42,210 bases of DNA, taken from positions 1-42,210 of the IMG/VR virus record IMGVR_UViG_3300022542_000836. One strand, 5' to 3'. The position numbers and the translations under genes were made by a program. Source of the stretch: a virus. Positions 3,733-37,586 of this stretch are shown piece after piece. The notes under the pieces were generated by a model, which saw nothing but the letters and a program-made list of their open reading frames with translations, made no database searches and was not told where the DNA came from. Within the stretch, counting starts at the first letter, position 1. Each line of letters opens with the position of its first letter.

Positions 3733-3741
3733 CTTATAAAC

Positions 3742-3880: not shown

Positions 3881-4126
3881 TTATTCCTTATCTGGGATAA
3901 ATACATATGTACCTGATACCTGAGGATATTCTTGAAAGGTTTGGTAGGCTTCTATATGTTCACCTTGCTCTTTCAATACCTCTCTTTCATCTTTCCTGCC
4001 CTTCCCGCAAGCAGGTTGATACATAGCATCAGCACCAGCTTCAAAGTCATAACTGCTATAATAGGTTGCATCAGGGTCTTTATAATCATTAACAATTTCC
4101 TTCCAATTCTCAGGTCTCCAGTTCAT
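3881..4126 (-). CDS. Small phage protein with YDFEAGADA motif (81 residues)
   Basis: Last gene of the 11.4-to-3.9 kb leftward operon. The central YDFEAGADAMYQ matches the Y-E-A-G-A-D-A helix seen in many small phage proteins of unknown role, and the C-terminus is a strand rich in aromatics (GTYVFIPDKE). It overlaps the upstream gene by 17 nt and has a GGAGG site before its ATG. The regulatory region of the RHH operon begins about 50 nt after its stop. Confidence 0.7.
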   Translation of the reverse strand: MNWRPENWKEIVNDYKDPDATYYSSYDFEAGADAMYQPACGKGRKDEREVLKEQGEHIEAYQTFQEYPQVSGTYVFIPDKE

Positions 4127-4499
4127 CTTTAACCTCCAAAGTCTTATAGATTACCCAGAATAGAGCAAGGGCTAAATCCTCTCCTAATTCTATGTGTGTT
4201 AGGGAATATCGGTCTCCCCAACTCCATTCAACCGAGTCTACTTTCTCCAAAACTACTCTATAATTGGTGTCTCTAGTATAAGGGTAGCAAATCTGCAGTT
4301 CCCAACCACTAGGAACCCTTGGCACAGCATACTTGAACAGGTTGTTGAGGTCTATGGGTGGTAGTGTAGAGTGTATTGAGCCACCACGATAAATCCAATA
4401 AGGATTGGTTGCTGGAATACTGACACTAGGATTACCAGTTTCATAGTAAAACCCGCACTGTTCCCAAAACCACTGTATCTGCTCTTTAGTCGGTTCCAT
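4110..4499 (-). CDS. Conserved phage hypothetical protein (129 residues)
   Basis: N-terminus MEPTKEQIQWFWEQCGFYYE followed later by PPIDLNNLFKYAVP, then a strand-rich centre and ELGEDLALALFWVIYKTLE. This is the architecture of a widespread phage protein group in which a short helical start and a D-L-N-N-L-F-K-Y-A-V segment precede a final A-L-A-x-A-I/L-W helix. Function unknown. A strong AGGAGG lies 6-8 nt before the ATG; overlaps its upstream neighbour. Confidence 0.75.
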   Translation of the reverse strand: MEPTKEQIQWFWEQCGFYYETGNPSVSIPATNPYWIYRGGSIHSTLPPIDLNNLFKYAVPRVPSGWELQICYPYTRDTNYRVVLEKVDSVEWSWGDRYSLTHIELGEDLALALFWVIYKTLEVKDELET

Positions 4500-4653
4500 T
4501 TTTAACCTCCTCTATTCCGTGCCAACCACTACCATTGCACTTATGACATTTACCCTGACAAGTGCTAATCATAGGTGGCATCCTGTAATGATACACAATG
4601 GCAACTTCTCCTTCACCCTTACATATCGGACATTGTTTTAATCTAAACTTCAT
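4486..4653 (-). CDS. DnaJ-type zinc-finger miniprotein (55 residues)
   Basis: Contains CPICKGEGEV and, after about 20 residues, CQGKCHKCNGSGWHG. The C-x2-C-x-G-x-G repeats are the signature of the DnaJ cysteine-rich zinc domain, here without any J domain, so it is a free zinc-binding miniprotein. Its ATG overlaps the upstream stop (TAATG) and its own end overlaps the next gene by 14 nt, supporting translation. Such proteins are frequent in phage early regions; target unknown. Confidence 0.7.
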   Translation of the reverse strand: MKFRLKQCPICKGEGEVAIVYHYRMPPMISTCQGKCHKCNGSGWHGIEEVKNGTD

Positions 4654-4982
4654 TACTCACCTCCATAATGCTTAATATCTGCTTCCCTTTGGGCTTGGAC
4701 AAGCCAATTTACATTCTCTAAAACAGTTAAATATGGTGCACCAGTAATGTTTTTGGTTCGTTCCTTCCTAACTACCTCACTTAGAAATGGCGGTTTATCT
4801 TTGGGTAGCTCATCAGGAATGAGGGCTAGGATTTGGTCTATCTCTGGTGGTAAGCCCTTTCTGGTATAGCCATCAGGATAAACAAACCACCCTAGTAAAT
4901 CTGACTTATATCCCAGAATAGTTAATATCTCCTCCCTCAACTCAGGTCTATCTTTGGGTGGTTTGCATGCTTCTTTATCCAT
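4653..4982 (-). CDS. Hypothetical protein (109 residues)
   Basis: Begins MDKEACKPPKDRPELREEIL; contains a small hydrophobic patch around LGWFVYPDGYTRKGLPPEIDQIL and a helical C-terminus (ENVNWLVQAQREADIKHYG). No recognised domain. Lies directly downstream of the RepA-like ATPase gene with 3 nt between them and is stop-start coupled to the zinc-finger miniprotein. Possibly an accessory of the helicase, by position only. Confidence 0.65.
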   Translation of the reverse strand: MDKEACKPPKDRPELREEILTILGYKSDLLGWFVYPDGYTRKGLPPEIDQILALIPDELPKDKPPFLSEVVRKERTKNITGAPYLTVLENVNWLVQAQREADIKHYGGE

Positions 4983-4985
4983 TGG

Positions 4986-5735
4986 TTAACCTCCTTTCCT
5001 AGTAAATACCAAATTACTTCTATCTATATGGATGGTGATAGGTTTCAACTCCTGTTCGGCATGTCTAACCTTTTCAAAACTGAGGATGACATCACCATCC
5101 TGTGCTCCTAAAGTTGTGCGGATGCTGGTATCACACCAATCTATAAAGATGGAAGTGCCAAACATATCCTCGGCTCCATAGTCCATAGCCACACCATCGC
5201 TAATAATATGCTTTCGGTCATGGTGAACCATTATCAGCGACAGTTTGTATTTGTCTATGAGGTTGTCCATCCTATCCATAAATTGACGCATATCATATTC
5301 ATCGGTTATCCTACCTGATACTAGTTTGTAAAGAGGGTCTATCATCAGGATTTGGGCTTGGGTTCTGGATAGCTCCTTCTCCAATTCAGCATAGCCAAAG
5401 CCTCTATCCAACTTGACATAATGTTCGGAAGCAAAGTAGATGTCTTTGGAGGTGGTATCATTACCTTTGACATATTTTAAGACTCTGGTGCGGAATTGTG
5501 CTTGTGGCACCTCTATTTGTAGGATATAGACTGGTGAAGGAACGGTCTTAAAGCCAAACCAGTCCTTGCCTGTGGCTATGGTGAAGGCTGTATGGATTAT
5601 CAGCATACTCTTCCAGGTTTCATACTTACCAAAGAGTATGAGTTTGGTTTGTGGCAGTAACAAGCCTTTGTCCATAACATAGGTTTGGAATGGTGGTTTC
5701 CACCTAGTTAGTTCATCCAAGTCCAATGCCCTCAA
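4986..5735 (-). CDS. RepA-like hexameric helicase / AAA_25 ATPase
   Basis: 249 residues. Residues 34-43 read LFGKYETWKS, a P-loop in which the usual Gly before Lys is Trp (G-x4-W-K-S). Walker B follows in ILMIDPLYKL (D133), then LIMVHHDRK as the sensor His region. This order is that of the RepA/RegA-like RecA-fold ATPases used as replicative helicases or loaders. It is the only helicase candidate in the genome and no primase is recognisable, so it probably serves replication with DNA polymerase A. Overlaps the upstream gene by 4 nt. The Trp variant occurs in relatives as I recall them, but should be checked. Confidence 0.7.
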   Translation of the reverse strand: MRALDLDELTRWKPPFQTYVMDKGLLLPQTKLILFGKYETWKSMLIIHTAFTIATGKDWFGFKTVPSPVYILQIEVPQAQFRTRVLKYVKGNDTTSKDIYFASEHYVKLDRGFGYAELEKELSRTQAQILMIDPLYKLVSGRITDEYDMRQFMDRMDNLIDKYKLSLIMVHHDRKHIISDGVAMDYGAEDMFGTSIFIDWCDTSIRTTLGAQDGDVILSFEKVRHAEQELKPITIHIDRSNLVFTRKGG

Positions 5736-6136
5736 AGAACCAAACCTTTAGTTTTCTGTTGTAGTTCCCTTACCAGTCCTCTAGGAATACCGTCATCTAG
5801 TTTCCTGGTTTGATGCTCCCTACCGTTTAATACCACACTACCATTAGCTTCCAGCTTACTGCATAATTTATGGTGGGTTCTAATTGCGGACTCAGGTTTC
5901 CTATAGCCCTGACAGTGGAGTATGTTGCCAAACTTCTCACCTTGCTTATCACATTCCCATACCATAGTCTCGTTTGGGTAAGGTGGAGTCCACCAAGCAT
6001 CACGCCGTTCTGTTGCCACACTTACTAACCTTCTTGCTGGTAGGTTAACGGTGGAGATAAAGAAGTACCTATCATTGCTCTTGACAATGGAACAAGCTAG
6101 GTGTCCTCTTATTGGTCTTTCCAACTGTTTTATCAT
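5732..6136 (-). CDS. Hypothetical protein upstream of the helicase (134 residues)
   Basis: No recognised domain. The N-terminal half has short strands (GHLACSIVKSNDRYFFISTVNL), the middle is Trp-rich (DAWWTPPYPNETMVWECD) with scattered Cys and His, and the C-terminus is basic (NGREHQTRKLDDGIPRGLVREL). Strong AGAGGAGG ribosome site. Overlap with the helicase gene suggests a replication role by association only. Confidence 0.6.
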   Translation of the reverse strand: MIKQLERPIRGHLACSIVKSNDRYFFISTVNLPARRLVSVATERRDAWWTPPYPNETMVWECDKQGEKFGNILHCQGYRKPESAIRTHHKLCSKLEANGSVVLNGREHQTRKLDDGIPRGLVRELQQKTKGLVL

Positions 6137-6147
6137 TTTGTCCTCCT

Positions 6148-6285
6148 CTATGTGGATATAGTTCCTAAAATATGTCCTACCCTACCCTCGTTATTTTCAT
6201 ATATGACAAGTAGGAAGTCCTCAGCAAAGATTAAGGAGTCTGGTGGATACTTCTTTAATTCATCTAGGAGTTCCTGGATGGTCAT
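6148..6285 (-). CDS. Small conserved phage protein (45 residues)
   Basis: MTIQELLDELKKYPPDSLIF, then LLVIYENNEG and a hydrophobic end. This is a shorter version of the 79-residue protein at 1757-1996 (xELxxxLxxxxxDxxV start), so the two are probably distant paralogs. Its ATG overlaps the upstream stop (ATGA). Function unknown. Confidence 0.6.
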   Translation of the reverse strand: MTIQELLDELKKYPPDSLIFAEDFLLVIYENNEGRVGHILGTIST

Positions 6286-6491
6286 TGCTCATCCTCCTCT
6301 ACCAATGTTGCTCCCTCGTTTGTTATAAAACTAGATTTCTCCTCTACCACAGCAGGATATGTCCTCTCCAGATATGCTTGGAACTTTTCTTGCTCCTCGG
6401 TGAGAGGGATACCAAGTTCTTTACATACAGCATACAGGGTGAATTGGTGTCCTTGGGTTGCAGCTACAAAAGCCTGTCCTGATTTACTCAT
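6282..6491 (-). CDS. Hypothetical protein (69 residues)
   Basis: Helical, acidic towards the C-terminus; starts MSKSGQAFVAATQGHQFTLY and continues AVCKELGIPLTEEQEKFQAY. No recognised motif. Overlaps the upstream HTH/zinc gene by 8 nt and the next gene by 4 nt, so it is embedded in the operon. Confidence 0.6.
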   Translation of the reverse strand: MSKSGQAFVAATQGHQFTLYAVCKELGIPLTEEQEKFQAYLERTYPAVVEEKSSFITNEGATLVEEDEQ

Positions 6492-6891
6492 TTATCAGTT
6501 CCTCCTTCTTCAAATCTACTAAATCCCATAGCTCCATACCAACCAACAACACACAGATACCTATTTCACAGGCTGGTCGGTGATAAGGACAATTATCACA
6601 ATCAGGGAGGTTGGTAGCACTATACCTCAGCTTTAGCCGTTTAATCCATTTGCTAATGGTGCTGGTGTCAACCTCATTACCTAGTTTCTTAGCCACCACG
6701 GCTAATGAACCAGATAGTAGTACCTCTTCCATAGAAACATTATACTTTAGCTCCAGATATTGCATCATAGAGGTTTTTGTTTGTTTGGTCGGTATCACAC
6801 CAGGCTTTAGCTTGTGGTGCTTTCTCCTAGCTGGTTGGACACTGACCAAGCCTCGGTCTTTGAGGATTTTATCCCTTATTGCTTTTACCAT
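6484..6891 (-). CDS. Helix-turn-helix protein with C-terminal Cys/His cluster
   Basis: 135 residues. A basic start (KHHKLKPGVIPTKQTKTS) is followed by SLAVVAKKLGNEVD and TSTISKWIKRLKLRYS (about residues 62-92), a helix-turn-helix with the recognition helix in TISKWIKRL. It then has CDNCPYHRPACEIGIC, a likely zinc or iron-sulphur site. A DNA-binding regulator is likely; whether it acts on phage or host promoters is not visible. Central in the leftward operon. Confidence 0.6.
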   Translation of the reverse strand: MVKAIRDKILKDRGLVSVQPARRKHHKLKPGVIPTKQTKTSMMQYLELKYNVSMEEVLLSGSLAVVAKKLGNEVDTSTISKWIKRLKLRYSATNLPDCDNCPYHRPACEIGICVLLVGMELWDLVDLKKEELINE

Positions 6892-6930
6892 CCTATTACT
6901 TCATCTCCAAGTCCCGTGCTTCTCAGCAAT

Positions 6931-7356
6931 CTACTCCTGCCCATCGTATTCCTCTATCTCCCATTCAACATCATCAGGGATTTCTATTATTTTGAGGTTA
7001 GCAAACCTACTATCGGCTTTCTTCCCCAATTCCTCCACTACCTGTATTAAAAGCAGGTCAGTCCTAGATATATCTCTTGCGGAGAAGTATAAGGCATTGG
7101 ACCTTTCAAACTTACCAGGTTCATTCGGTCTTAGTTTATCCTCTTCCACTATTTGGTTGTATTCTTCCTCTGGCACGGTTGTATAATGCACACATAGAAT
7201 ACCTGAATTGTCCAAGGTTGCTTTCTCCTTATAGGCTTCCTTGGTAATGTTGTCTAACCAAGGATAGAGTTTGATACCTTTAAGCTCTGCATACCTCATA
7301 ACACCAACATAGCTTAAACCAAAACCACCATATTTGCTGTTTATTACGACCTTCAT
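6931..7356 (-). CDS. Conserved phage protein, MKVVINSxYGGFGLS family
   Basis: 141 residues. The start MKVVINSKYGGFGLSYVGVM and the end KIIEIPDDVEWEIEEYDGQE are those of a very common phage and prophage protein of unknown function. Between them lie DISRTDLLLIQVVEELGKKA and SRFANLKIIEI, also typical. Family members sit in early regions next to other small genes, as here. The strong ribosome site GGAGG lies inside the end of the upstream 33-residue membrane peptide gene. Confidence 0.85.
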   Translation of the reverse strand: MKVVINSKYGGFGLSYVGVMRYAELKGIKLYPWLDNITKEAYKEKATLDNSGILCVHYTTVPEEEYNQIVEEDKLRPNEPGKFERSNALYFSARDISRTDLLLIQVVEELGKKADSRFANLKIIEIPDDVEWEIEEYDGQE

Positions 7357-7360
7357 TTGT

Positions 7361-7462
7361 TTAACCTCCTTCCCAATACCTAAAGAAAAAGTGGTATAGT
7401 AGGTAGAGTGTTACCCAGAAACCAATGAACATTAACCACCATCTGATGTGGAGTCCTTGCAT
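7361..7462 (-). CDS. 33-residue single-pass membrane peptide
   Basis: MQGLHIRWWLMFIGFWVTLY then LLYHFFFRYWEGG: one aromatic-rich membrane segment flanked by basic residues, so the N-terminus or both flanks should face the cytoplasm. Its ATG overlaps the upstream stop (TAATG) and its end contains the ribosome site of the next gene. Function unknown. Confidence 0.5.
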   Translation of the reverse strand: MQGLHIRWWLMFIGFWVTLYLLYHFFFRYWEGG

Positions 7463-7674
7463 TACTGACCCTGCTTGCTGAGCAGGATTTCTAGGTGATA
7501 GCGGTCATTGAGTTCATCCTCTATTACTCGCTTTATCCTTAGGCAAAAGTTTTTGTCCTTGCAGTTATCATCCTCACAATCTAGTAGGACAAATTGATTA
7601 TCTAAGGAGTCTGGGGGAGTGTGGGTTATATGTTTCATACAGCAGGTGGTTGAGTCCTTTAATTGATTGAACAT
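7462..7674 (-). CDS. Hypothetical Cys-containing protein (70 residues)
   Basis: Contains TTCCMKH, then DCEDDNCKDKNFCLRI, five to six cysteines in all, so metal binding is possible. The C-terminal half is helical (RVIEDELNDRYHLEILLSKQ). No recognised family. Directly follows the 143-residue gene with no gap. Confidence 0.55.
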   Translation of the reverse strand: MFNQLKDSTTCCMKHITHTPPDSLDNQFVLLDCEDDNCKDKNFCLRIKRVIEDELNDRYHLEILLSKQGQ

Positions 7675-8106
7675 TTATTTACCTCCTATTACCTTTCCAT
7701 TATAGTTGATACACATACCTTCGGTGAACTTGGTATCACCTTTGTGATAGCTGCCATAATACCATTGGTAGCCAACTTGGCAGATTTTCATCCATTTCAA
7801 CCTCTTCTTAATCCAGTCTGGCTCCCTATCATCTATATGGATATTTGTATTAACATTAGCTAATTCCAATGCTAGGTTGAGCCTAGCTTTGGTTGTGGTG
7901 GTATACCAACCAGCAGAGAATAACTTTAGGTGGTCAGGATAAAACCTAGCTACTAGGTTGCCGTGGAGTCTCATATCTATAAATTCCTCCTTAGTCCATC
8001 CTTCCTCCACGGAAGCAATATCCAATAGTCTTAACTCTAGGTAAGTGTTGTTAGCAATCTTCCTATGACCTCTATACAACCTGTCTTTTACATCCTGATA
8101 ACTCAT
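7675..8106 (-). CDS. Conserved phage protein, RKIANNTYLELR family (143 residues)
   Basis: Contains HRKIANNTYLELR, then MRLHGNLVARFYPDHLKLFS and AGWYTTTTKARLNLAL. These three blocks in this order (I-A-N-N-T-Y; R-L-H-x-x-x-V-x-x-x-x-P-D; G-W-x-T-x-T-T-x-x-R-x-N) mark a family common in phages of several bacterial phyla, with no established function that I know. The end, TKFTEGMCINYNGKVIGGK, is the usual beta-hairpin. Part of the early operon. Confidence 0.8.
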   Translation of the reverse strand: MSYQDVKDRLYRGHRKIANNTYLELRLLDIASVEEGWTKEEFIDMRLHGNLVARFYPDHLKLFSAGWYTTTTKARLNLALELANVNTNIHIDDREPDWIKKRLKWMKICQVGYQWYYGSYHKGDTKFTEGMCINYNGKVIGGK

Positions 8107-22514: not shown

Positions 22515-25500
22515 ATGCCTGATGGATTTCCAGAGGAATTAGCAGAACTTTCACCCCAAATGAAGGAAATTACCAGTTGGTTCCTTTCCTTTTCCCAACG
22601 CATAGCAAAGGCAAGTCCTATGCTCAGGACAAAGCTTGTTGAATGGGAAAGTAAGAGGATGAGGTATTGGTCCTCAATGGGTGAAACCCAAAGGCTCATA
22701 GAGGAATACAGTGAACATTATGAGGCGTATGCTTCAATGGGTGGGGGAGGCATTTTTATTGCAAAGCTCCTCAAGATACCATCACTCCCACCAGAAACAA
22801 GGGTTAAAGCTGCTCAAATAGCCTTTGTGGGGACTGCAGGAGAGGAACTAGGTAGGCTTAAAAACAAAATGGGTGTTGCTATAGATGACCTTGAGAAACA
22901 GGACTTTTACCACAAATTATATGGTGATGTTCCTACTGTCATATCTAGTGGACGGGCAACCTCGGTTGATGAGGTTTTATCATTGCTACCTGTTCCAAAA
23001 ACCATTACACCAGCCGAACTTAGTTCAATTAGGAATACCATAGCTGGGATGTTTGAGGCTTTTTCAGCTGAACCTCTTGAGGAGATTGCAAGGGAGGTAG
23101 AGTTACCAGAACTAATTGCTCCTGTAGGTATTGCTCCCAAACCGATTGGCATATCTGTAATAACTACTGAGGAAATCCTTAAAGCGATTACTGCTCCTAG
23201 AATTCCTCCTCAAGTCATGACTGATGAGGAGTGGTATGAATTATTAAAGATGGAAGGCTACAGCGATGCTGATTTGGAGGAAGTAGCCTACACCCAACTC
23301 CTTGCTGATGACCTAATTGCAAGCTGGATTGAGGATGCCAACCGCTTGGAGGCATTTAGGGGTGGTGTAGCTGATATGCCAGATTATACCTTTTGGAATA
23401 TAGTCAAAGAGGTGGTTGTGCAACCAGGTTTAGCTGCTATGGAATTAGCTGGTCTATATTTTGAGCATGTTTCCCAACCAATAGCTGGTTTTGTGTGGAA
23501 AACCTTTATCCCTGACATAGAGGTTGAATATCAAAGGTTAAGGAAAACAGAATCCACTTGGGAAGCTCTAGGTAATGCTTGGCAGAATTGGGAGTTCAAC
23601 TGGTTTGTCAAATATATGCTGATGGAAGGTGTGGTTGACCCATTAACTTATGTGGGTTGGGGTATAGCTGCTAGGATTACCAAACCAATCCCTTATGTTG
23701 GTAGATTTGTTGGAGCAGCTGAGAGAGGGATACAATCGCTTTTTGAGGTTCCATTTGACCTAATAAAAGCAGGTTGGATGAAGATACCAAAAACTGCTAG
23801 TTTGCGTGCTTCGGCTGCTCAAAGGCAAGCAGGTAGACTTGTTGATAAAGCTATGACCAAATATTGGGATAAACCTCTCCATAGCATCAATATGAAGGAG
23901 TTTGGAGAGGGTGCTGAGGTATTTATAAAATTTGCTCTTGACCATCCACAATCGGAGGAATGGATGGCTTTAGCTGGAAGAGAGTTGCTTAAACATGCTC
24001 CTGTAGATGAAGCCCTTATCAGAAGTTGGTCTAAGAGGTTAGGCACCACCCTTACTCCTGAGGACATAACCAGAGTAACCATAGAGAATGTTGAAAACCT
24101 CTTTGAGGACTATTTTATGAAAGGTATTATCACCCAGAAGGAAGCTGCTGGTAGACTTCTGCGTATTCTGGGTGCAGCAAATCCTGATGATGATGCTTTG
24201 AAACTAGCCCAAAGGTTGTTACAGGAGAGAGTAAATGTTATATCCCGAGGAGCTATGGTATTTGCTAGTGCTAAAAGTTCTTTCAAAGCAATGCAGGTTT
24301 TAATGAAGAGGAACTTTAAAATCCAAATGCAAATAGAGGAGAGTGCAGCTTACCTTGTTCGCAAAGAGGTTGGTGGCTATACCGTCCTGCTCCACAATGT
24401 GGATGTTAGGCTTCAAGGTATTTGGAGAAATCAAATTGATAGGATGGTAGTAAGACCTTTTGCTGAGGCTTACCTGACCTTTGGTATGTATGGTCCGATG
24501 AATGTCCTTGAGGATTATATTCGTTCCTCCCTTGGTGGCGTTCGTCCCAGAAGGATGACCACTGAAAACTTTGAGTCGTTGGCTGTAGGTTTAGCCTATG
24601 ACCCTAATATCAAAAGACCAGGTATATCAGAGATGATTGGTTATCTAGCTAGAGAGGGAGCTGAGGAGAATTGGAATAATTGGATTCTCCAACTGGCTAT
24701 GTTGGGACGGAAAGGTTGGGCGGATAAACTCTATACCTATGCGGTTAGAATTCCTGGTGCTTATGGTATGGATGTTCGTAGGAACTTTCTTAGTAGGCGG
24801 TACCTCCAGATACTTAGGGAAACAGGTGGTGATACTTATGAGGCTCTGATGAGGGTTGGACCTAAGACACCAGTATTGGCTGATAAAAGCATAGTTAGGG
24901 ATTTGGAAACTTTAGTTCACCATACTAAAAGCACAGGTAATCCAAATTCAGTTAGAAATGTCAAAGACCAATTTACAAGGAAGAAAATAGTTGGAAATGA
25001 AGTCAATACTATCCTTAAACAGCATCCTGAATTGCCTAATACTGTGAGGGATTTTGTCAGAGGTGAGTTTAAGGCTGGAACTTTATTCAGTGAAGGTGGT
25101 GTCTCCATAGACAGAACTATAAGTGAAAGCGGAACCATGCTCTTGGATGATTTTATCCGAAGTCCTGAAATAGCTACCCGACAAATGAAATCCTTAGCCG
25201 ATATCCTAGTTGAATTGGAGGTGAAGAATCCTCAGGATATGGCATGGTGTCTCAAACAGCTACAGGTAATGTCAAATGTCTATGGAGCTACTCCCAGACA
25301 GGTCATTGCTCAGGCTACCGTTAGGAGCAGAGGTTTATCCCTAGCTGAGAGAAGGGTAAGGTTTGATGCTGACTTTGACAGATTATACCTGTTCCTAGAT
25401 AGTGCTGGTGCTGATATAGACAGAGTTATTACCAAACTAAAAACCTTGATGAAGGAACCAAGAGTAGCTATATCCGATGATTATGTTACCAAAGCTGATA

Positions 25501-27983
25501 GGTTGTTTGACATCCTAACAACCAAGCGGGAATATGCTGCTGAGTTCCGAGCACAAAATATGGCTACCCGTCATGAGATATTTGCTGGAGCTACCGCAGC
25601 CGATATGAAAAGTAGGACTTTTTGGGATGACTTTTACCTCCGTATGGATAGCGAATATATAACTTTTGATAGAAGGATAGCAGACCTTGATGGTATGTTG
25701 GTTCAGGTAGCTGAAGGTATGGATATATCTGCTGGTATTAAACCTTTCCAAAGACCAGCTATTAAAGCGATGGATAGACCTTTAGCTCCTCAGGATGTGG
25801 CTAACCTTCTTGGTTGCCGAGGTGATGACATCTCTAGGTCTTTGTTGGATGTCCTTACAATCCAAAACGATAGGGAGATGTTTATCACCTATGTCCTGGC
25901 AAAAACCAGACCTGGTGATGCAGGTTTTACCAAAGAATCTGTAGGAGCGGTTTATGACCAGATAGTCTATTCCTTACAAACAGACCCTAGAACCATGTCC
26001 TGGATTACCTCCAAGCAAATGGAATTGGAAGCTGTCAGAAGGGACTTACACTATCTACATAACTCCAAGATGTTCCCTAAGGAGGAGAAGATAATTATAG
26101 ATAGGTTCTTGGATGAAACTGCCGATGCTATGGATGACCTAATGTTCACCACTAAGCCAAGTAGAAAGGGAGTACCTCCAACCAAGGCGATAAAATCCGA
26201 GTTTGCTGATTTTGATTCCCTCCGTCAATCCGCTATGGATGAAGCTCACAAATGGTATTATAAGGAATATCCTGATTACACCAACGCCAATGCTTTTGAT
26301 GCTATGATGAAAACCATTTATCCTTATTGGACTTATGAATCCCAGAGATGGTTTTGGCTTCCTCGTAGCTTTATTAGGCATCCTGGAACCTTCACCGCAT
26401 TTGAAAGGTGGCAGAATAACACCGACTATGGTTATGTCCATATACCAGGGACTTCCGTGGACATTAACCCATTTAGAGGGACTATCTATGGTACTTTAAC
26501 AACCAGACTTACCAGAAGGGATTTCCCTGAGTATTATGATGCTTTACCATTTGCTGGCAACTTTGTGGAGTTTATGGATTTCCTCTCCCGATGGGGTTTT
26601 TATCCAGGTGCTCATATTGGTATCCCTCTAGCTATGTTTGGTGGCTTAGAGCAACAGATGGGTGAGACCATACCAGCGATATGGAAAACTCCTCTAAATG
26701 CTGCTATAGGTTTATTCCCTGACAATACATTTGTGAAAGCGGTTAGTGAAACTATATTTCCAGATAGGTTCAGAGATTACCTGACTATCCTTATGGTCAA
26801 CAAGCGTGGTTATGATGGAACCCATATCTGGACTAAGATGGAGGAACACCTAGAGCTAACTGAGGAAGAACAAGCTGTTTGGACTGATGCTAGGAGTGAG
26901 GCAGCATTACATGGTATGCTTTTTGAGCAGTTTGGTTTGTTCAGACTTAGGAGTGATGAGCAATATCAGGTGTATGAGGATTCTGCCAAAGCTATAGAGG
27001 AAATGACGGGGTTTACTCCTGACCAACAAAAGTGGCTTAGGATGCATGGTTATAAGATATGGGATTTGGTAGGTGGTATGTCCCCAACTCAGCAAGCTAT
27101 TCTCCAAGAACTAGATGCCTACAGGTGGATGGGTTCTGTTAGACCCTTGCTGCCTGGCAGACAGCAGGAAATCCTGAATAGGCTGGAATTGGATTGGGAT
27201 GATGTTAGGAGATATACCGAAAACCAGCAACAGGAGAAACTCCAAATACAGCAGGATTTCCTTATGGGTATAATCGGTCCTAGAGACTACAACGATAAGC
27301 TAATTGACCTCTATGATGACCAAAGCAACTATATAGACCAAAGGATGGAGGAGAATCCTTTAATGACTTTGGAGGGTAGAACCGATTACTATAAGGAATT
27401 TAATATACCTATGCCAGTCCTACATCCTATGAGGGAACTACTCAACCTCTACTTTGATATAGAGCTAAAGGATAAGATAGATGAGGAAACTGGTGAAAAG
27501 GTAAAGGACTGGGATACCTTTTGGGCGCAAAGGGAAGCTATAGAAGGTGCCATTCCACCCCACCTAAAGCAAGAGTGGGATGACTATATTTCAAGGAATT
27601 CTACCAGGGTGGAACTAATAAGACGAAAGGTGTATAAGGAATACTTCAGGGTATATAATAAAATCTGGGAGTCTGCTTTAGAGAGATACCCAGAGGAGGA
27701 GCAAAAGCTGATTAAGGAATTCCTCTACCTTGAACGCATGGATATAGACTTTGCTCGGCAGGATGAAATCAAGGCTATGGTTAGTGTAAAGACAGGTAAT
27801 ATGCTAATATCTAGTTTTCGCTCTGATGTATCCAATGCTAGATTAGCACTTAGGTATGCTAATCCTGCCTTGGATGCCTGGTTGAGGTTCTGGGGTAGGG
27901 TTGAGAGTTTCCAAACTCCTGAAGCTGGGGTTATCTTTGTGCAGATTTGCAAGGATGTTGGTAAGAAATATACTTTATCATAA
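22515..27983 (+). CDS. Giant virion protein, probable internal/ejection protein (1822 residues)
   Basis: By far the largest gene (5.5 kb), between portal and scaffold. Residues 1-300 are helical. About residues 290-410 contain Trp-rich segments (TFWNIVKEVVVQPGLAAMEL, LGNAWQNWEFNWFVKYMLME) and hydrophobic stretches near PLTYVGWGIAARITKPIPYV. The long centre is helical with repeated R/K-E pairs. Near residue 1270 there is YPYWTYESQRWFWLPRSFIR, reminiscent of large polyvalent or ejected proteins, and later PFAGNFVEFMDFLSRWGFYP. No transglycosylase, protease or polymerase motif was found. Position and size suggest a head-internal protein injected with the DNA. A tape measure is unlikely in this position. 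Confidence 0.6.
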   Translation: MPDGFPEELAELSPQMKEITSWFLSFSQRIAKASPMLRTKLVEWESKRMRYWSSMGETQRLIEEYSEHYEAYASMGGGGIFIAKLLKIPSLPPETRVKAAQIAFVGTAGEELGRLKNKMGVAIDDLEKQDFYHKLYGDVPTVISSGRATSVDEVLSLLPVPKTITPAELSSIRNTIAGMFEAFSAEPLEEIAREVELPELIAPVGIAPKPIGISVITTEEILKAITAPRIPPQVMTDEEWYELLKMEGYSDADLEEVAYTQLLADDLIASWIEDANRLEAFRGGVADMPDYTFWNIVKEVVVQPGLAAMELAGLYFEHVSQPIAGFVWKTFIPDIEVEYQRLRKTESTWEALGNAWQNWEFNWFVKYMLMEGVVDPLTYVGWGIAARITKPIPYVGRFVGAAERGIQSLFEVPFDLIKAGWMKIPKTASLRASAAQRQAGRLVDKAMTKYWDKPLHSINMKEFGEGAEVFIKFALDHPQSEEWMALAGRELLKHAPVDEALIRSWSKRLGTTLTPEDITRVTIENVENLFEDYFMKGIITQKEAAGRLLRILGAANPDDDALKLAQRLLQERVNVISRGAMVFASAKSSFKAMQVLMKRNFKIQMQIEESAAYLVRKEVGGYTVLLHNVDVRLQGIWRNQIDRMVVRPFAEAYLTFGMYGPMNVLEDYIRSSLGGVRPRRMTTENFESLAVGLAYDPNIKRPGISEMIGYLAREGAEENWNNWILQLAMLGRKGWADKLYTYAVRIPGAYGMDVRRNFLSRRYLQILRETGGDTYEALMRVGPKTPVLADKSIVRDLETLVHHTKSTGNPNSVRNVKDQFTRKKIVGNEVNTILKQHPELPNTVRDFVRGEFKAGTLFSEGGVSIDRTISESGTMLLDDFIRSPEIATRQMKSLADILVELEVKNPQDMAWCLKQLQVMSNVYGATPRQVIAQATVRSRGLSLAERRVRFDADFDRLYLFLDSAGADIDRVITKLKTLMKEPRVAISDDYVTKADRLFDILTTKREYAAEFRAQNMATRHEIFAGATAADMKSRTFWDDFYLRMDSEYITFDRRIADLDGMLVQVAEGMDISAGIKPFQRPAIKAMDRPLAPQDVANLLGCRGDDISRSLLDVLTIQNDREMFITYVLAKTRPGDAGFTKESVGAVYDQIVYSLQTDPRTMSWITSKQMELEAVRRDLHYLHNSKMFPKEEKIIIDRFLDETADAMDDLMFTTKPSRKGVPPTKAIKSEFADFDSLRQSAMDEAHKWYYKEYPDYTNANAFDAMMKTIYPYWTYESQRWFWLPRSFIRHPGTFTAFERWQNNTDYGYVHIPGTSVDINPFRGTIYGTLTTRLTRRDFPEYYDALPFAGNFVEFMDFLSRWGFYPGAHIGIPLAMFGGLEQQMGETIPAIWKTPLNAAIGLFPDNTFVKAVSETIFPDRFRDYLTILMVNKRGYDGTHIWTKMEEHLELTEEEQAVWTDARSEAALHGMLFEQFGLFRLRSDEQYQVYEDSAKAIEEMTGFTPDQQKWLRMHGYKIWDLVGGMSPTQQAILQELDAYRWMGSVRPLLPGRQQEILNRLELDWDDVRRYTENQQQEKLQIQQDFLMGIIGPRDYNDKLIDLYDDQSNYIDQRMEENPLMTLEGRTDYYKEFNIPMPVLHPMRELLNLYFDIELKDKIDEETGEKVKDWDTFWAQREAIEGAIPPHLKQEWDDYISRNSTRVELIRRKVYKEYFRVYNKIWESALERYPEEEQKLIKEFLYLERMDIDFARQDEIKAMVSVKTGNMLISSFRSDVSNARLALRYANPALDAWLRFWGRVESFQTPEAGVIFVQICKDVGKKYTLS

Positions 27984-29770: not shown

Positions 29771-30376
29771 ATGACTGAGTTTTATTCCAAGGTTATGTCA
29801 ACGGATGGTAGCGACACTATTGAGGCTGACCATGTTGAGATAAACACCGAGAATGACCAGAAAAATGTCCGCATCAATAGCAGGGACTACACCAGAACCA
29901 GTGGCGACCAAACTGCTGTCCAAGTTAAGCCTAATATGTCGGTAACAGGAACTGGTGGCATCACTGGCATTGAGGTTTCACCTAGGTTTGCTGATGGTTG
30001 TGCTGGCTCCAAGCTAGTAGGTATCATGTCCAACCCAGACCTAAAAGGGACTACTGGTGATTTGTCTAGTGCTATGAGGTGCTATGAAGGTAAATTGGAA
30101 TCAGCTAGTGGTTCTACCAGAACCGTGGCTGAGGCTTATGTCCTCCACTGTATGCAAGCACTTCACGGGACTGTTACCACTGGTCCTTATGCAATCTGTG
30201 TAGATGCTGGTGGAGGTAATGTAGCTTGGGCTGGTTTTGCTAAGTTACCTGATGATTCTCAAATAGCAAATGATGAGGATACTGGTGCTGCCAATACCAT
30301 AACTGGTTATGTTAAGGTGATGGTTGGCTCAGCAGTTAGGTATATCTACTTATATACTCTAATACCTAGCGGATAA
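29771..30376 (+). CDS. Capsid-adjacent decoration/fibre protein, paralog A (201 residues)
   Basis: Directly after the capsid gene. Beta-rich: NVRINSRDYTRTSGDQTAVQ, GITGIEVSPRFADGCAGSKL, VGIMSNPDLKG, SSAMRCYEGKLESASGSTRT, VAEAYVLHCMQALHGTVTTG. The same series occurs almost unchanged in the C-terminal 180 residues of the gene at 34653-35444, so the two are clear paralogs. It probably sits on the virion surface as a head decoration or head fibre, by position. One motif copy (29793-29801) lies inside its coding part, possibly by chance. Confidence 0.7.
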   Translation: MTEFYSKVMSTDGSDTIEADHVEINTENDQKNVRINSRDYTRTSGDQTAVQVKPNMSVTGTGGITGIEVSPRFADGCAGSKLVGIMSNPDLKGTTGDLSSAMRCYEGKLESASGSTRTVAEAYVLHCMQALHGTVTTGPYAICVDAGGGNVAWAGFAKLPDDSQIANDEDTGAANTITGYVKVMVGSAVRYIYLYTLIPSG

Positions 30377-31662: not shown

Positions 31663-31834
31663 TATTTCCCGTATTCCACACTACATAGTTGAAGGTCTAT
31701 CAGTTATTGCTATAACCATTATTACCGTTGCTTATATGACAGTTGGTTGTTATGAGACTCCTGTTATCCTAGCAGCCATAGGAGCAATAACTGGAATAGC
31801 TGCTTGGGACATCCATAAGAGGAATAAACCATGA
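31652..31834 (+). CDS. Two-helix membrane protein (60 residues)
   Basis: Start at ATG 31652 behind GAGGAGGG. Segment 1 (YIVEGLSVIAITIITVAYMT) and segment 2 (PVILAAIGAITGIAAWDI) span the membrane with a short loop VGCYET, and the tail HKRNKP is basic. Size, two spans and late position make it a second holin candidate. Overlaps both neighbours by 4 to 11 nt. Confidence 0.5.
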   Translation: MKNSISRIPHYIVEGLSVIAITIITVAYMTVGCYETPVILAAIGAITGIAAWDIHKRNKP

Positions 31835-32853
31835 GAGACATCAGTTCCACCCAGAAAGCTGCACAGGAATCAACCTCAGCAACCCCTTATATTTTTGTGA
31901 GGATTGATAGTGCCAATTACTCCTCCAACACTGGCAAGCTGTTAGGGATAGAACACCATGAGTTACAATACTCCAGTGATGCTGTTATTATCCTAAGAAA
32001 CGATGACCGCTCTTTGGATGATGTTGACCTAGTGGGTCAGGATGTTGGTGTAGGTTATGGACATGTAACCAGCGTTGGGAATGAATATGAAGATATGACT
32101 TCTAGGATGTATGTGAAATCCCAACATTTCCATTCCTTTGAAGGTAAGTGTATCTGTGTCCTACAGTGTGAGGGGGTATGGGATGTCCTAAGAGAAAAGA
32201 GAGCTATTCTCCTTGCTGACCCACCTAGCTATGATGTTGTTTATGATAGAACCAAAACCATTTATGAGTTAATTAAAATGCTACTAGCTTCCTGCGATTA
32301 TGACCTTGACCCTCTAGGAGACCAGGATGATGGTATCATCAATGATTTCAAACCTTACTTTGAGCTAAACTACTTCCCTTATGAAAATATTGCCTCCATC
32401 ATATATAGGTTGATACAGATGACCAAATGTTTCATCAGAGCAAAGTCTGTTGGAGATTTCAAAATTATCTACCCACATGAGGATGATGATGTAGATGAGA
32501 AGTATTATTCCCGCAAAGCTCATTTCTTCCATGAATATACAGAGAAGAAGAACCTTCTAATTCCTAACAAAGTGGCTGTTTATGGTAACAGAGATGAAAC
32601 TGGGATACCTTGGGAAAACCCTGTTGTTGGCACTGCTGAGGATGCCGACCAAATTGCTAAATATGATGCAGGAGAAATCCTTTGGACTTTTCCTGCTCCT
32701 ACTATCCTTACTGAAGAGGATGCTACCAACCGAGCGGCAGCCATATTAGCTAGGTTCAAAGGTGAAACTTTAGCTGGGAGGTTGGTAGTCCCGCATGATG
32801 CTAGGGTAGAGCTTTATGATAGGGTTAGGATATATGACAGTAGGGGAACATAG
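31831..32853 (+). CDS. Tail hub / knob protein, C-terminus apparently split (340 residues)
   Basis: Strand-rich N-terminus with YIFVRIDSANYSSNTGKLLG, HHELQYSSDAVIILRNDDRS, LDDVDLVGQDVGVGYGHVTS, the first hub domain. An alpha/beta centre (TIYELIKMLLASCDYDLDPL, NIASIIYRLIQMTKCFIRAK) and ATNRAAAILARFKGETLAGR with VELYDRVRIYDSRGT follow. These are the elements of phage tail hub / baseplate-type proteins binding fibre and tail tip. The product stops right after YDSRGT, where I would expect another 40-60 residues. A matching continuation occurs near the end of the next gene (see findings). Confidence 0.6.
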   Translation: MRDISSTQKAAQESTSATPYIFVRIDSANYSSNTGKLLGIEHHELQYSSDAVIILRNDDRSLDDVDLVGQDVGVGYGHVTSVGNEYEDMTSRMYVKSQHFHSFEGKCICVLQCEGVWDVLREKRAILLADPPSYDVVYDRTKTIYELIKMLLASCDYDLDPLGDQDDGIINDFKPYFELNYFPYENIASIIYRLIQMTKCFIRAKSVGDFKIIYPHEDDDVDEKYYSRKAHFFHEYTEKKNLLIPNKVAVYGNRDETGIPWENPVVGTAEDADQIAKYDAGEILWTFPAPTILTEEDATNRAAAILARFKGETLAGRLVVPHDARVELYDRVRIYDSRGT

Positions 32854-32855
32854 GT

Positions 32856-34409
32856 ATGGGAAATTCAATAATATTTGGTCATTCACCTACCACCGCTGTA
32901 AATAATTCTTATACTTGGCTTTTTGGTGGTTGGGAGTGGTCGCATTTGGTAGCTGCTGGACAACGAGTTCAAGTTATTACAACTCCAGGCTGTTTGGAGA
33001 ACCTACTCGTTTATCTACCAGATGCTCCTGGGGTTGGGGAATCCTGCCAGCTTATCCTTCAGGTAAATGGTGTTGATACAGCCTTAACAGTTACCATAGC
33101 TGGAACAGATACAATAGGTTTTAACCTAACAGATGTTGTTTCAGTTGTTGCGGGTGATACCGTTGGGCTTTTATGTTTAAGGACTGGTGGGCTTCCCTAT
33201 CCAAGTTGGGCGTTGATATTTGAGGCAACCAATGTTAAGGAGAGTTTGATACTTGGTTCAAATCTTACTGCAACTGGTGGAAGCAGATATTCACCAATTT
33301 CAACCGCAGGTAGCTATCCCGCCACTGCTGAAGCGGATGCCATACAAATTTGTCCGACTTCTGGGGTTATCAAAAACCTCTACATTAACCTTTCGTCAGA
33401 CCCAGGTAGCTCTTCTGCCAAAGGCTATACTTTTACCTTGAGGAAGAACATAGTAGATACAGCTTTAACAGTTACTCTGTTATACCAAAACCGAACTGGA
33501 AATGACACCACCCATGAAGTTTCGGTGGTTGCTGGGGATAGACTTTGCTTGGTTATGACTCCAGTAGGGGGAACAAGTTGGGCTTCCAATGTGCGTTTTG
33601 GTATGACATTCCTAGCTGATACCGACGGTGAAAATATTTTGTTTGGTGGTGATAGCACTCCTCTACATACAACGGCGACCGAATGGAACGAGCTTGTTAG
33701 TCACTATAGAGGTGGCAATTGGACAGGAAGTGAAATAGCACATGATACGGTAGCCATTGTTTGTACCTTGGAAAAGTTGTATGTTTACCTTGATAACCCA
33801 CCTGGTGCTGGCAAATCTTATACCTTTACGGTGAGGAAAAATTATGTTGATACAGATTTGACTGTTACTATAAGTGACTCGTCTACTACAGGAAGCGATA
33901 CCACCCATACCGTTTCAATTTCCGCTTGGGATATGCTTACTCTACAATGTGTACCGTCTGGAACACCTACTGGTGCGGAAGCTAAATGGGGTCTTGTTTG
34001 TTCTTCCGCTCTTGGGGTGGTTTATCCTGACCCTTCGGAAGCTACAATCAGAGTTACAGGTTTAATCCACCGCTGGTTTCCAGGAACCTACACCCTAGAA
34101 ATAACCTTAGGAGCAATAACTACTGAGTTTGGCTTACCATGGTGGTCTAAAGAACCTGCTCCACCAATACCACCAGATGAGCCTTCTCCACCTCCAACTC
34201 CTGTTGAACCTGACTACCCAACATTGGTTCCATGCCATCACGGAGATGTTATGACATATATGGGTAATACCTGGCGATGTATAGCTGGGACATGGGTTAT
34301 TGTAAGCGAAACAGGTGAACCAGGCACCACATGTGTTGAGGGAACATGGACAACCATAAATGGTAGACCTTATGTTTGTAAGAATGGTATGTGGCAATAT
34401 ATGCCTTAG
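32856..34409 (+). CDS. Triple-repeat adhesin with proline-rich stalk (517 residues)
   Basis: Three tandem domains of about 128 residues: 1-126, 127-255 and 256-387. Each repeats the pattern F/LG..., strand, L-Y-x-L-x-x-x-P-G-x-x-x-S-Y-T-F-T, V-D-T-A/D-L-T-V-T-I and V-S-V-V-A-G-D. Examples are NGVDTALTVTIAGTDTIG, NIVDTALTVTLLYQNRTG and NYVDTDLTVTISDSSTTG. This fits jelly-roll receptor-binding modules. Residues 388-433 (VVYPDPSEATIRVTGLIHRW, FPGTYTLEITLGAITTEFG) resemble a hub C-terminus. Then comes a stalk (APPIPPDEPSPPPTPVEPDY) and a Cys-containing tip (CHHGDVMTYMGNTWRCIAGT). The gene follows the hub by 2 nt in a different frame. Confidence 0.7.
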   Translation: MGNSIIFGHSPTTAVNNSYTWLFGGWEWSHLVAAGQRVQVITTPGCLENLLVYLPDAPGVGESCQLILQVNGVDTALTVTIAGTDTIGFNLTDVVSVVAGDTVGLLCLRTGGLPYPSWALIFEATNVKESLILGSNLTATGGSRYSPISTAGSYPATAEADAIQICPTSGVIKNLYINLSSDPGSSSAKGYTFTLRKNIVDTALTVTLLYQNRTGNDTTHEVSVVAGDRLCLVMTPVGGTSWASNVRFGMTFLADTDGENILFGGDSTPLHTTATEWNELVSHYRGGNWTGSEIAHDTVAIVCTLEKLYVYLDNPPGAGKSYTFTVRKNYVDTDLTVTISDSSTTGSDTTHTVSISAWDMLTLQCVPSGTPTGAEAKWGLVCSSALGVVYPDPSEATIRVTGLIHRWFPGTYTLEITLGAITTEFGLPWWSKEPAPPIPPDEPSPPPTPVEPDYPTLVPCHHGDVMTYMGNTWRCIAGTWVIVSETGEPGTTCVEGTWTTINGRPYVCKNGMWQYMP

Positions 34410-34423: not shown

Positions 34424-34639
34424 ATGAAAAAGAATCCTAGACCAGATAGTGAATGGTACACAGACCTAGACACTAGGAGCTTATTTATTGCTAGAGGAGC
34501 AATTAAACATTGGATGTTAGCTCCTGGTCATGCATTGCCAGTTGGTATATATGGCACCCACAAGTATGGCAGGTGTCGGTATGGGGCTAGAATAGGGATT
34601 TATGGTTATGACAAATATGGGTCATGTAGTTATGCTTAA
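34424..34639 (+). CDS. Small protein with Gly-Tyr repeats (71 residues)
   Basis: N-terminal part MKKNPRPDSEWYTDLDTRSL, FIARGAIKHWMLAPGHALPV, then GIYGTHKYGRCRYGARIGIY and GYDKYGSCSYA: the unit GIYGxxKYGxCxYG occurs twice. Such Tyr-Gly repeats occur at the ends of several phage fibre or knob proteins and may form a short beta-stack. No good ribosome site; probably coupled to the upstream gene. Confidence 0.55.
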   Translation: MKKNPRPDSEWYTDLDTRSLFIARGAIKHWMLAPGHALPVGIYGTHKYGRCRYGARIGIYGYDKYGSCSYA

Positions 34640-34652
34640 AAGGAGGTATCAG

Positions 34653-35444
34653 ATGTTCAATAGATTATGGAGCTTAATCAAGGAAATCCACTACGACCAA
34701 CGAGGGGGGACTGGAACTGCTGTAGCTACGGATGAAACCATCACCGCAGCTAAAATGAACCTGAAGCTGGAGGACTATGACCTGATAGACGACCAAGAAT
34801 TGCTATTTGGGACAGGAGATGATGTCAAGGCAACATTTGATGGAACCAAACTTCTTATCACCATAGCTTCCCAGCTAGACTTCATCCTGACTGGTGGACA
34901 TTGGTGTATGCAGACCTTAGAGGATACCAAGAACATCCGTCTAAACAGTAGGGATTATGTAGCAACCAGTGGGGATGTTTGTGCTGTCCAAACTAAACCT
35001 AATATATCTGTAGGTGGAACCACTGGTGTTGTTGGTATAGAGTCCATGCCTAGATTTGCCAGTGGTATAGCTGGTAGTAAGCTGGTAGGTATTATGTCCA
35101 ATCCTATCCTGAAAGGTGCTGCTGGCGGTAACCTTAGTAGTGCCATGAGGTGTTACGAAGGCAAATTGGAAAGCGACAGTGGTTCCACAAGGACTGTAGC
35201 GGAAGCCTTCGTTATCCATGCCATGCAAGCCTTACATGGAACAGTTACCGATGGACCTTGGGTTCTAGCTGTGGACGCAGCAGGTGGAAATGTTGAATGG
35301 GCAGGGTTGATGAAATTGGTTGATAATGGTGGAGCAATAGCTGACTTGGCATCTGCGGTTACCACAGTTGTAGGAGCCATTAAGGTCAAGATAGGTGCTC
35401 AGGTAGGCTATATACCAGTTTATACCAGCTATACCGCTTCATAG
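34653..35444 (+). CDS. Fibre/decoration protein, paralog B with extra N-terminal domain (263 residues)
   Basis: Start chosen at ATG 34653 after AAAGGAGGTATC. Residues 1-75: MFNRLWSLIKEIHYDQRGGT, then AATDETITAAKMNL-type helix and DDQELLFGTGDDVKATFDGT, a beta block common in fibre shafts. From about residue 90 it runs parallel to the protein at 29771-30376 (NIRLNSRDYVATSGDVCAVQ, GVVGIESMPRFASGIAGSKL, AMRCYEGKLESDSGSTRTVA). The shared domain probably forms the same trimer or tip; the extra domain could be the attachment site to the tail. Followed by a short coiled-coil gene, as the other copy is. Confidence 0.7.
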   Translation: MFNRLWSLIKEIHYDQRGGTGTAVATDETITAAKMNLKLEDYDLIDDQELLFGTGDDVKATFDGTKLLITIASQLDFILTGGHWCMQTLEDTKNIRLNSRDYVATSGDVCAVQTKPNISVGGTTGVVGIESMPRFASGIAGSKLVGIMSNPILKGAAGGNLSSAMRCYEGKLESDSGSTRTVAEAFVIHAMQALHGTVTDGPWVLAVDAAGGNVEWAGLMKLVDNGGAIADLASAVTTVVGAIKVKIGAQVGYIPVYTSYTAS

Positions 35445-35452: not shown

Positions 35453-35674
35453 ATGGAGATAGATGTTCAAATGGAAATAGAGAAACAGGTGAGTGAGGTT
35501 AATCTCCTTAACAGCCAGATACAGCAAATCCAACAGCAAAGGGAAGCTGTGTTACAGGAATTGTTTAGGAGACAAGGTGTTATACAATACCTACAAGGAC
35601 TAGGGAATGGCGAAGCACCTGCTGATGACCCTGTGGTAGTAACAATTAAGGGAGGCTTTGATGAACCTGACTGA
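35453..35674 (+). CDS. Coiled-coil small protein, paralog B (73 residues)
   Basis: MEIDVQMEIEKQVSEVNLLN, SQIQQIQQQREAVLQELFRR, QGVIQYLQGLGNGEAPADDP. Long Gln-rich helix ending in GVIQYLQGL, comparable with GVLTYINQ in 30411-30596. With the upstream gene it makes the second copy of a two-gene unit. AGGAGGAATC precedes the ATG. Confidence 0.6.
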   Translation: MEIDVQMEIEKQVSEVNLLNSQIQQIQQQREAVLQELFRRQGVIQYLQGLGNGEAPADDPVVVTIKGGFDEPD

Positions 35675-37586
35675 ATATAGAACCGAGCTTAGACTTGACC
35701 TAAAGGATGCCACAACCTTATGGTCTAACGATGAACTTGATAGGTGTGTGGAGCGGGCAGTAGCAGACCTTAGTAGGTTCATACCTTTAGAAGCGGTTTA
35801 TGAATATACCATAGATTATACCGTAGAGGATGAATCATCCACCGCTCCTGCTGCTGGAACCTACAAAGCTCTAGCCTACAAACCTATTAAGCCAGAATCC
35901 GAAACAGTTACCACTGACCCTGCTGGCACTACCTACACCAGAGATACAGACTTCACGATGGACTATATCAATGGCAAATACACTATCATATCTGGAGGCT
36001 CTATCTCTGAGAATGATAGCTTGCTTTTTGACTACACGAAGTCTCGGCTAGGCATAGATATATCGGCTATCATATCCGCCCTGATAAGAGTTGTCCAGGT
36101 AGAATATCCTGTTGATAAAGTTCCTCAGCAACTTGTCTCCTTCAATATCTGGAATGAGTTTATGTATATAGGTAGCCAGAAGGTTGGTCAATCCCAAATC
36201 CAGCTTACTGATAAGGAACACATAGCTATCTATTATGATAAGGAACACACCTTCCCAACTGTTTCTGCTGATGGCTCCTACCAGGAATACCTAGACCAGG
36301 TAGTTTGTATAGGAGCAGGAGCTTATGCTCTCCTGATAAAAGCTATCCAATACGAACATCAGTCGGTAACTGACTTAGCTTCCTCCAGAACAGCTTTAGG
36401 TAACTTATCAGGAATCCATACAGCTGTAGGAACTGCTTTAGGCAACCTAGCAGCTATTCATACCCTAACCGATGCAGCTTTGGATAAAATCGCTACCTAT
36501 GTTGCGGATGCTGATACCGCCTTGGATGCTTTTATCACCAAGATTGCTGATGCTCCCACAGCTTTAGCCAAGGTTGACACCTATCTAGCAGGAGCATCAG
36601 AATCCACCAAAGCTCTCCTTGCTCAGATAGCTACCGACGCTGCTAGTCTTAGGACTGCTATGGTAACCGCTGTGGTTGCAGCTAAAGCCTATTTAGATGA
36701 GGTGGATACCACTGACCTTCAGAGTGCTGAAGCTGTTTGGATGGATGAGGTAAAGCATATCCTCACCGCAGAGGCTATGCCTAATGCTCAATACTTTCTA
36801 GGATTAGGCGATGACTCCATTGATATTACCTCCATCCTCACCGATGTGGAAGCAGCTTTGGACAAAATAGCCACTGAGGTAGCAGCAGGTAAAACCTATA
36901 TAGAAACAGGTGATGATAAGATAAACACCGTTAATATAGGTGATAATGTTCCTGAACTTTATAGGGATTATGCTAATGTTGAGGTTGGTTTAGGAGCAGC
37001 CTACAGGCAGGAAGCCAGTGAGAGGCTAAGGAAGGCTACCCTCCAGCAGCAACAAGCGGAGTTGTATAGAAGGTATGCTGAGGCTGCTATTGAGATGGCT
37101 AGGTTGTGGGAGAACAAGAGAAGGGACTTCCTCTCACAAGCTACAGCTAGGATAACCGCTGCTATGGGTTATGTAGCAGAAGCGGATTCAAGGTTGTCCA
37201 ACCTCAGAAGCTATATAGAGCAAGGTAATAGTTATGCCACCATAGCTAATGGGTTTACCGCTGAGGCGGAAGGTAGAATAGCGGTAGCTAGGAGCTACAT
37301 AGAGGAGGCTGCTCAAAGGTTGGCAATGAGCAGGGGTTATGCTGAGGAAGCCAGTGGTAGAATGGCTGAGATAGATAGATACCTAGCAGAGGTCGGTGCT
37401 AGATTATCCGAACTGGATGACTATGTAGCGGAGGCTGACCGATACATAGGTTTGGCTGGTTCTGACCGTGAATTAGCTGATAGGTTCAAAGCTGAGGGTA
37501 TTGAGCGAAGGAATGAATTTTGGAGTATTCTCCGAGACAAAAGTGAGTATAGGAAGAGGCTGGTATCTACTCCTGTTCGGCAGTAG
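35661..37586 (+). CDS. Head-tail adaptor-like domain fused to long coiled coil (641 residues)
   Basis: Start at ATG 35661 (the frame's TTG before it lies in the ribosome site AAGGGAGG). Residues 1-45: TEYRTELRLDLKDATTLWSN, DELDRCVERAVADLSRFIPL. This matches the opening of phage adaptor / head-completion proteins (R-x-x-L-R-x-x-L-x-D...W-x-D-x-E-L-x-x-x-x-x-x-A-x-x-x-L-S/R-x-x-P). A beta domain follows (about 50-190). Residues 230-640 are Ala-rich long helices with repeats such as AMGYVAEADSRLSNLRSYIE and ARSYIEEAAQRLAMSRGYAE. A connector on one end and a rod on the other is unusual; it could join head and a tail needle. Confidence 0.6.
   Translation: MNLTEYRTELRLDLKDATTLWSNDELDRCVERAVADLSRFIPLEAVYEYTIDYTVEDESSTAPAAGTYKALAYKPIKPESETVTTDPAGTTYTRDTDFTMDYINGKYTIISGGSISENDSLLFDYTKSRLGIDISAIISALIRVVQVEYPVDKVPQQLVSFNIWNEFMYIGSQKVGQSQIQLTDKEHIAIYYDKEHTFPTVSADGSYQEYLDQVVCIGAGAYALLIKAIQYEHQSVTDLASSRTALGNLSGIHTAVGTALGNLAAIHTLTDAALDKIATYVADADTALDAFITKIADAPTALAKVDTYLAGASESTKALLAQIATDAASLRTAMVTAVVAAKAYLDEVDTTDLQSAEAVWMDEVKHILTAEAMPNAQYFLGLGDDSIDITSILTDVEAALDKIATEVAAGKTYIETGDDKINTVNIGDNVPELYRDYANVEVGLGAAYRQEASERLRKATLQQQQAELYRRYAEAAIEMARLWENKRRDFLSQATARITAAMGYVAEADSRLSNLRSYIEQGNSYATIANGFTAEAEGRIAVARSYIEEAAQRLAMSRGYAEEASGRMAEIDRYLAEVGARLSELDDYVAEADRYIGLAGSDRELADRFKAEGIERRNEFWSILRDKSEYRKRLVSTPVRQ

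Follow-up and report, generated by a model that had tools for sequence, protein, structure and literature searches.

Gene Organization at the Hub Locus

The window, that is, the whole stretch of DNA analysed, corresponds to a 42,210-base virus record. Its predicted central tail hub is distributed over two consecutive genes, whose features are as follows.

31831–32853, + strand: N-terminal part of the hub, a 340-aa predicted central tail hub without its last β hairpin (fold assigned via the uninterrupted relative L009)
32851–32858, + strand: junction TAG-GT-ATG, hub stop and second-gene start (2-nt gap, −1 frame)
32856–34409, + strand: second gene, p2, 517 aa, comprising an adhesin-like cassette, the hub hairpin, a proline-rich linker and a small C-terminal domain
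32859–33242, + strand: cassette repeat 1, jelly-roll-like (alignment, BLASTP)
33243–33629, + strand: cassette repeat 2, jelly-roll-like, the one modelled (alignment, BLASTP, model)
33630–34010, + strand: cassette repeat 3, jelly-roll-like (alignment, BLASTP)
34017–34127, + strand: displaced hub segment, the hub's last β hairpin, p2 residues 388–424 (profile matches)
34155–34220, + strand: proline-rich linker, p2 residues 434–455 (from the sequence itself)
34221–34406, + strand: small C-terminal domain of p2, W/C-rich, two similar units (by eye)

The C-terminal end of the 340-aa hub protein is YDRVRIYDSRGT; the hub ORF (31831–32853) terminates with VELYDRVRIYDSRGT-TAG, and a longer stretch of the same C-terminus reads ELYDRVRIYDSRGT-TAG. 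The start codon of p2 is the ATG at 32856, in the −1 frame relative to the hub ORF, and the sequence AGGGG occurs upstream of it, within the last hub codons.

Neither the window hub nor p2 could be assigned a usable family in Pfam, PHROGs or NCBIfam. In tblastn searches of phage records p2 had no matches, and the hub had two partial, non-significant ones (E 10). For the C-terminal domain of p2, we found a CBM_5_12 match at the sub-threshold level only (E 0.14, under the curated cut-off).

Uninterrupted Relatives and the Hub Fold

A search with the hairpin segment retrieved L006, a locus in which one 869-aa protein holds both parts. Residues 1–206 and 195–339 of the window hub match residues 1–219 and 573–723 of this protein, which from residue 745 on reads VVGSLVHTYAPGTYTLEITLNG, matching the p2 segment. 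The hairpin is likewise found in the same chain, with no break, in L008, L009 and many Dehalococcoidia hubs; hence single proteins containing both parts, such as the first-pass annotation proposed to seek by aligning hub homologs, do exist. Both L006 and L008 also contain a large insert of their own at a different loop, adjoining the position of window hub residue 206 and propeller-like by eye.

The hub fold was modelled on the uninterrupted L009 protein, rather than on the window protein, from a 47-row alignment (pLDDT 85.2, pTM 0.85). The model resembles the hubs of Mu (gp44) and T4 (gp27), VgrG, and pyocin and PVC-type hubs, with Foldseek E values down to 1e-16 and VIA Z scores of 20–25 for the best 27 matches. 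Accordingly, the window protein is predicted to be homologous to central tail hubs of the gp27/Mu gp44/VgrG type.

In the L009 model, the hairpin corresponds to the last two strands (382–392 and 395–403, pLDDT 93–94), and the cassette site to the loop preceding them, which includes a low-confidence stretch (373–376); the cassette thus separates two neighbouring strands of the fold. All the solved hubs listed from the VIA comparison align through residue 404 of the model or further, implying that the fold normally includes the hairpin and that the window hub alone is without it. The C-terminal strands of T4 gp27 form part of its second tube-like barrel. The fold that is complete in L006, L008 and L009 is therefore incomplete in the window hub polypeptide, whose last hairpin is encoded by the next gene.

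L009 itself (3351–7707) contains two tandem hub copies. The second is the uninterrupted one, while the first has a propeller-like insert, an interruption by a LamG-like domain and a missing C-terminal end.

The Displaced Hairpin

Residues 388–424 of p2 have the sequence VVYPDPSEATIRVTGLIHRWFPGTYTLEITLGAITTE. To avoid circularity, they were scored with a profile built solely from the part of the uninterrupted hubs that follows the junction, leaving out the window and the other split hubs. Residues 394–422 of the window p2 reached 23.6 bits, against 5.0 for the best shuffled p2 control, and a profile–profile comparison of the uninterrupted-hub hairpin with p2 gave a probability of 97%. These data bear out the proposal of the first-pass annotation that the hub ends before a segment found in the following protein, in another frame. 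That segment had been placed at p2 residues 388–433; the hairpin is indeed there, and the displaced part can be delimited as 388–424. The same profile matched weakly or not at all in the most divergent p2 proteins (e.g., L026), which were recognised solely by a profile including split members.

The Split Is Common to a Clade

A profile scan returned 46 loci. In about 30 distinct viral loci, from 23 metagenome data sets (as judged by contig names), the hub stops at the same motif, and two further split hubs occur in one bacterial genome. When 36 loci (near-identical contigs included) were scanned with the hairpin profile, a downstream match was found in 31. Another, L002, showed a partial match in a contig that ends inside the hairpin, and the remaining four contigs end too early. 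The hairpin therefore follows in every split locus with enough sequence, and hubs that naturally end at this point and lack the segment, the finding that would have spoken against a split, were not encountered among them.

The tree of hubs needs two changes between the split and the uninterrupted state. A constraint grouping the uninterrupted hubs was not rejected (AU p 0.12), and neither, by the same test, was the possibility that the split arose once in the window's clade. The split of a hub gene associated with an adhesin cassette, as originally suggested, is thus supported, not as a one-off insertion but as a clade-wide trait of uncultured bacterial viruses with later cassette exchange; it is not a recent event in the window genome.

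Five contigs (L002, L003, L033, L039 and L041) end within ~1.1 kb past the hub stop, which would be expected were assemblies to break at the borders between variable cassettes and conserved flanks.

Cassette Diversity and Exchange

The three tandem repeats that the first-pass annotation had noticed in p2 are real (34–46% identity; BLASTP E 1e-12 to 1e-18 in single comparisons), while their likeness to jelly rolls is modest. Repeat 2 is predicted to form a β sandwich. Its best structural matches (Z ~8) were to jelly rolls of the C1q/TNF type and to receptor-binding domains of phages, among them the lactococcal phage 1358 receptor-binding protein. The repeats proved too divergent in alignment to be used for scanning, and a scan with p2 returned a single match, the identical contig L059.

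Among the split loci, the cassette measures 151–485 aa from hub stop to hairpin. By BLASTP, all 435 of 435 hub pairs were related versus 111 cassette pairs, and part of the relatedness of the latter derives from a shared Fn3-like domain adjoining the hairpin. The window and L002 have hubs that are 91% identical and unrelated cassettes; L034 and L035 are 97% identical in both hub and tail, again with unrelated cassettes. In L026, L028, L037 and L033 (hubs 77–90% identical) the cassettes are mutually unrelated, consisting of three jelly rolls, a CBM96-like domain, a single sandwich and a GLUG domain, respectively. The first three names, like most of our cassette domain names, were assigned by eye; the GLUG domain (Pfam E 5e-25) marks the only cassette to pass a curated Pfam cut-off.

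At the DNA level, both flanks align in five pairs with unrelated cassettes and the cassettes do not, homology resuming at the hairpin. This comparison relies on aligned lengths alone, as the shuffled-cassette null was uninformative owing to free end gaps. Conversely, the three-repeat cassette of the window recurs in L026 (35% over 388 aa, E 3e-53), despite hubs that are merely 39% identical. Cassettes have therefore been exchanged since the split, and recombination is the presumable route.

In five loci (L024, L029, L031, L051 and L053) the adhesin is a separate gene and the hairpin lies on a third one, so fusion between the two is not obligatory. The three-gene version (hub, adhesin, hairpin) spans, for example, 7011–8287 in L024, 7008–8287 in L031 and 3042–4379 in L053. 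In these three loci the Fn3-like domain of the adhesin looks cut before its last strand (“...YKAKAC” followed by “MTDWTYGSEVC...”), possibly a second case of strand splitting.

A Hub Probably Assembled from Two Gene Products

A model must accommodate several observations: both parts are homologous to a single uninterrupted hub, the fission point is fixed, the hairpin is constant, the cassettes turn over, and the second gene starts next to the hub stop or overlaps it. In our judgment, the hub is quite probably formed by two coupled genes, the N-terminal part associating non-covalently with the p2 hairpin and each subunit bearing one exchangeable, host-binding cassette. The first gene would make the entire hub minus its last β hairpin, and the second would make the adhesin-like cassette (in the window, three jelly rolls) together with exactly that hairpin. 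By strand completion, the p2 hairpin would then restore the C-terminal β domain, so that every functional hub subunit would display one cassette from a surface loop. We infer the non-covalent docking and the 1:1 stoichiometry from this arrangement, whereas a role of the cassettes in binding receptors on the host surface is suggested by domain resemblance. Exchange between viruses with homologous flanks would swap the cassette and leave the hub intact; the five three-gene loci speak against a version in which the adhesin is necessarily fused to the hairpin.

Alternatively, the shortened hub could be self-sufficient, with the p2 hairpin serving as a docking tag for a tail-fibre-like protein, or folding on its own and replacing no hub strands. 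We regard this as rather improbable. The point at which the hub ends is conserved, as if the protein were stable in that form, and a tag would also agree with the separation of adhesin and hairpin in the five loci above; however, the hairpin lies within a single chain in the uninterrupted relatives and in the listed solved hubs, and it is kept in every split locus where there is enough sequence.

Few parts of a phage tail are as conserved as the central hub, and one would expect a cut in it to do harm. That a cut is stable across a diverse clade, along with rapid turnover of probable host-binding domains, suggests a means of changing receptor specificity without changing the tail: under the strand-completion model, a cassette swap could re-aim the virus with no alteration of the hub. 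The split hub would also be a natural case for strand complementation. In practical terms, a hub end of the form D-x-R-G, followed by Y-P ... R-V-T-x-L-x-H, could serve as a sequence marker for adhesin cassettes in uncultured viruses.

Probably Two Products Rather Than One

Could the junction yield one fused protein after all, through programmed frameshifting or stop readthrough? We compared 31 junctions (in L039 the start falls at the end of the contig and is uncertain). In 18 of them stop and start overlap by one base (TAATG or TAGTG), and the rest lie within 9 nt. The second gene is in the −1 frame in 24 junctions, which would agree with frameshifting, but the −1 frame is a consequence of the TAATG overlap itself; moreover, the other seven are in frame 0 and the possible frame overlap spans just 0–28 nt. 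A slippery heptamer is absent from the window junction and from 30 of the 31 junctions overall, L048 being the exception. A start codon is present at the junction, often with a Shine-Dalgarno-like sequence for which the last hub codons double (e.g., AGAGGT). On these grounds (frames, short overlap, lack of heptamers, start codons) we rejected frameshifting and readthrough, to which we attach very little probability, and the frameshift product that the first-pass annotation suggested looking for by mass spectrometry is not expected. The junctions are best read as giving two separate products, by termination and restart.

Hardly any credence can be given to a sequencing or assembly error or to a decaying gene, since, notwithstanding an early stop near the contig end in L003 and apparent frameshifts in L034 and L041, the same fission point and start geometry recur both in the bacterial-genome loci and in ~30 loci drawn from 23 data sets, both halves are conserved, and the number of separate contigs rules this reading out for the clade.

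A Second Fission Site and the Hosts

A related, uninterrupted hub (L014) is found in a Dehalococcoidia genome, and hub matches occur in 122 of 294 genomes of this class. One of them, G114, contains the two window-type split hubs L091 and L092. On the L092 contig, genes for ketol-acid reductoisomerase and other biosynthetic functions are also present, and a phage integrase gene separates them from the phage genes, indicating that L092 is an integrated prophage. With the flanks of L091 inspected in less detail, at least one of the G114 loci can be called a prophage.

In six loci from Dehalococcoidia-class genomes (L093, L094, L095, L096, L097 and L101), the hub is cut elsewhere, at profile position ~205/208 of 337. 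The downstream half in most of these begins with an adhesin-like N-terminus, LamG-like by eye in L101, and it is at about this site that the first hub copy of L009 is broken by its LamG-like domain. Judging from these sequences, adhesin-linked fission of the hub has probably happened more than once. We lean slightly toward a more general view, in which viruses of Dehalococcoidia-like hosts repeatedly cut the hub at surface loops (at least two sites), with the missing part coming from an exchangeable adhesin gene, as if plugged into a socket. Were this so, host-recognition modules would be obligatory, stoichiometric hub parts that can be swapped as one gene.

Comparison with Known Systems

In the literature searched, which left subscription journals mostly outside its coverage, we found no described counterpart of a split hub whose last strands are supplied by an adhesin gene. 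The closest known system is that of the evolved Dit and decorated Tal proteins of Gram-positive siphophages (PMC7291167, PMC6669499, PMC10688798), where adhesin-like domains are likewise inserted in the loops of a tail-tip protein whose scaffold is conserved while the decoration varies. In evolved Dits, carbohydrate-binding modules are inserted in loops of one polypeptide (PMC7291167), whereas the window hub is split over two genes, with the adhesin gene bearing the last strands of the scaffold; furthermore, the decorated scaffold is mainly Dit in those phages and the hub here.

The hub gp15 of cyanophage A-1(L), which combines lysozyme, endoglucanase and peptidase domains in one chain (PMC10966104), resembles the window hub in being a member of the same fold family with extra domains, but these are enzymatic and the gene is not split. 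T4 gp27, Mu gp44, VgrG and PVC-type hubs have the fold predicted for L009, yet their last hairpin is in the hub chain itself and the loop used in the window carries no cassette. The uninterrupted Dehalococcoidia hubs (L014 and its class relatives) are homologous, with frames of ~650 aa or more that leave room for a large domain (in L014, propeller-like by eye and near the N-terminus). Unlike the window hub, they are encoded by one gene, with the insert at another loop and the C-terminal hairpin in place.

Genes around the Hub

No tail tube or tape-measure gene was recognisable within 16984–37586. An 1822-aa ORF upstream of the capsid gene (22515–27983) had no match in any library used, and in the L092 prophage no large ORF of tape-measure size lies between the portal-like and hub genes. 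If the virus were short-tailed, as it may be, having a gp27-type hub would be unusual. The gene at 35658–37586 encodes a 642-aa protein with a weak tail-tube/Ig-like match (residues 55–129) and, after it, long coiled-coil-like repeats; L091 has a similar gene ahead of its hub.

The hub region is flanked by two paralogous genes (63% identity over 177 aa), one (29771–30376) directly after the major capsid gene and the other (34602–35444) two genes past the hub. Between p2 and this second paralog lies a 71-aa ORF (34424–34639) with GIYGxxKYGxCxYG repeats.
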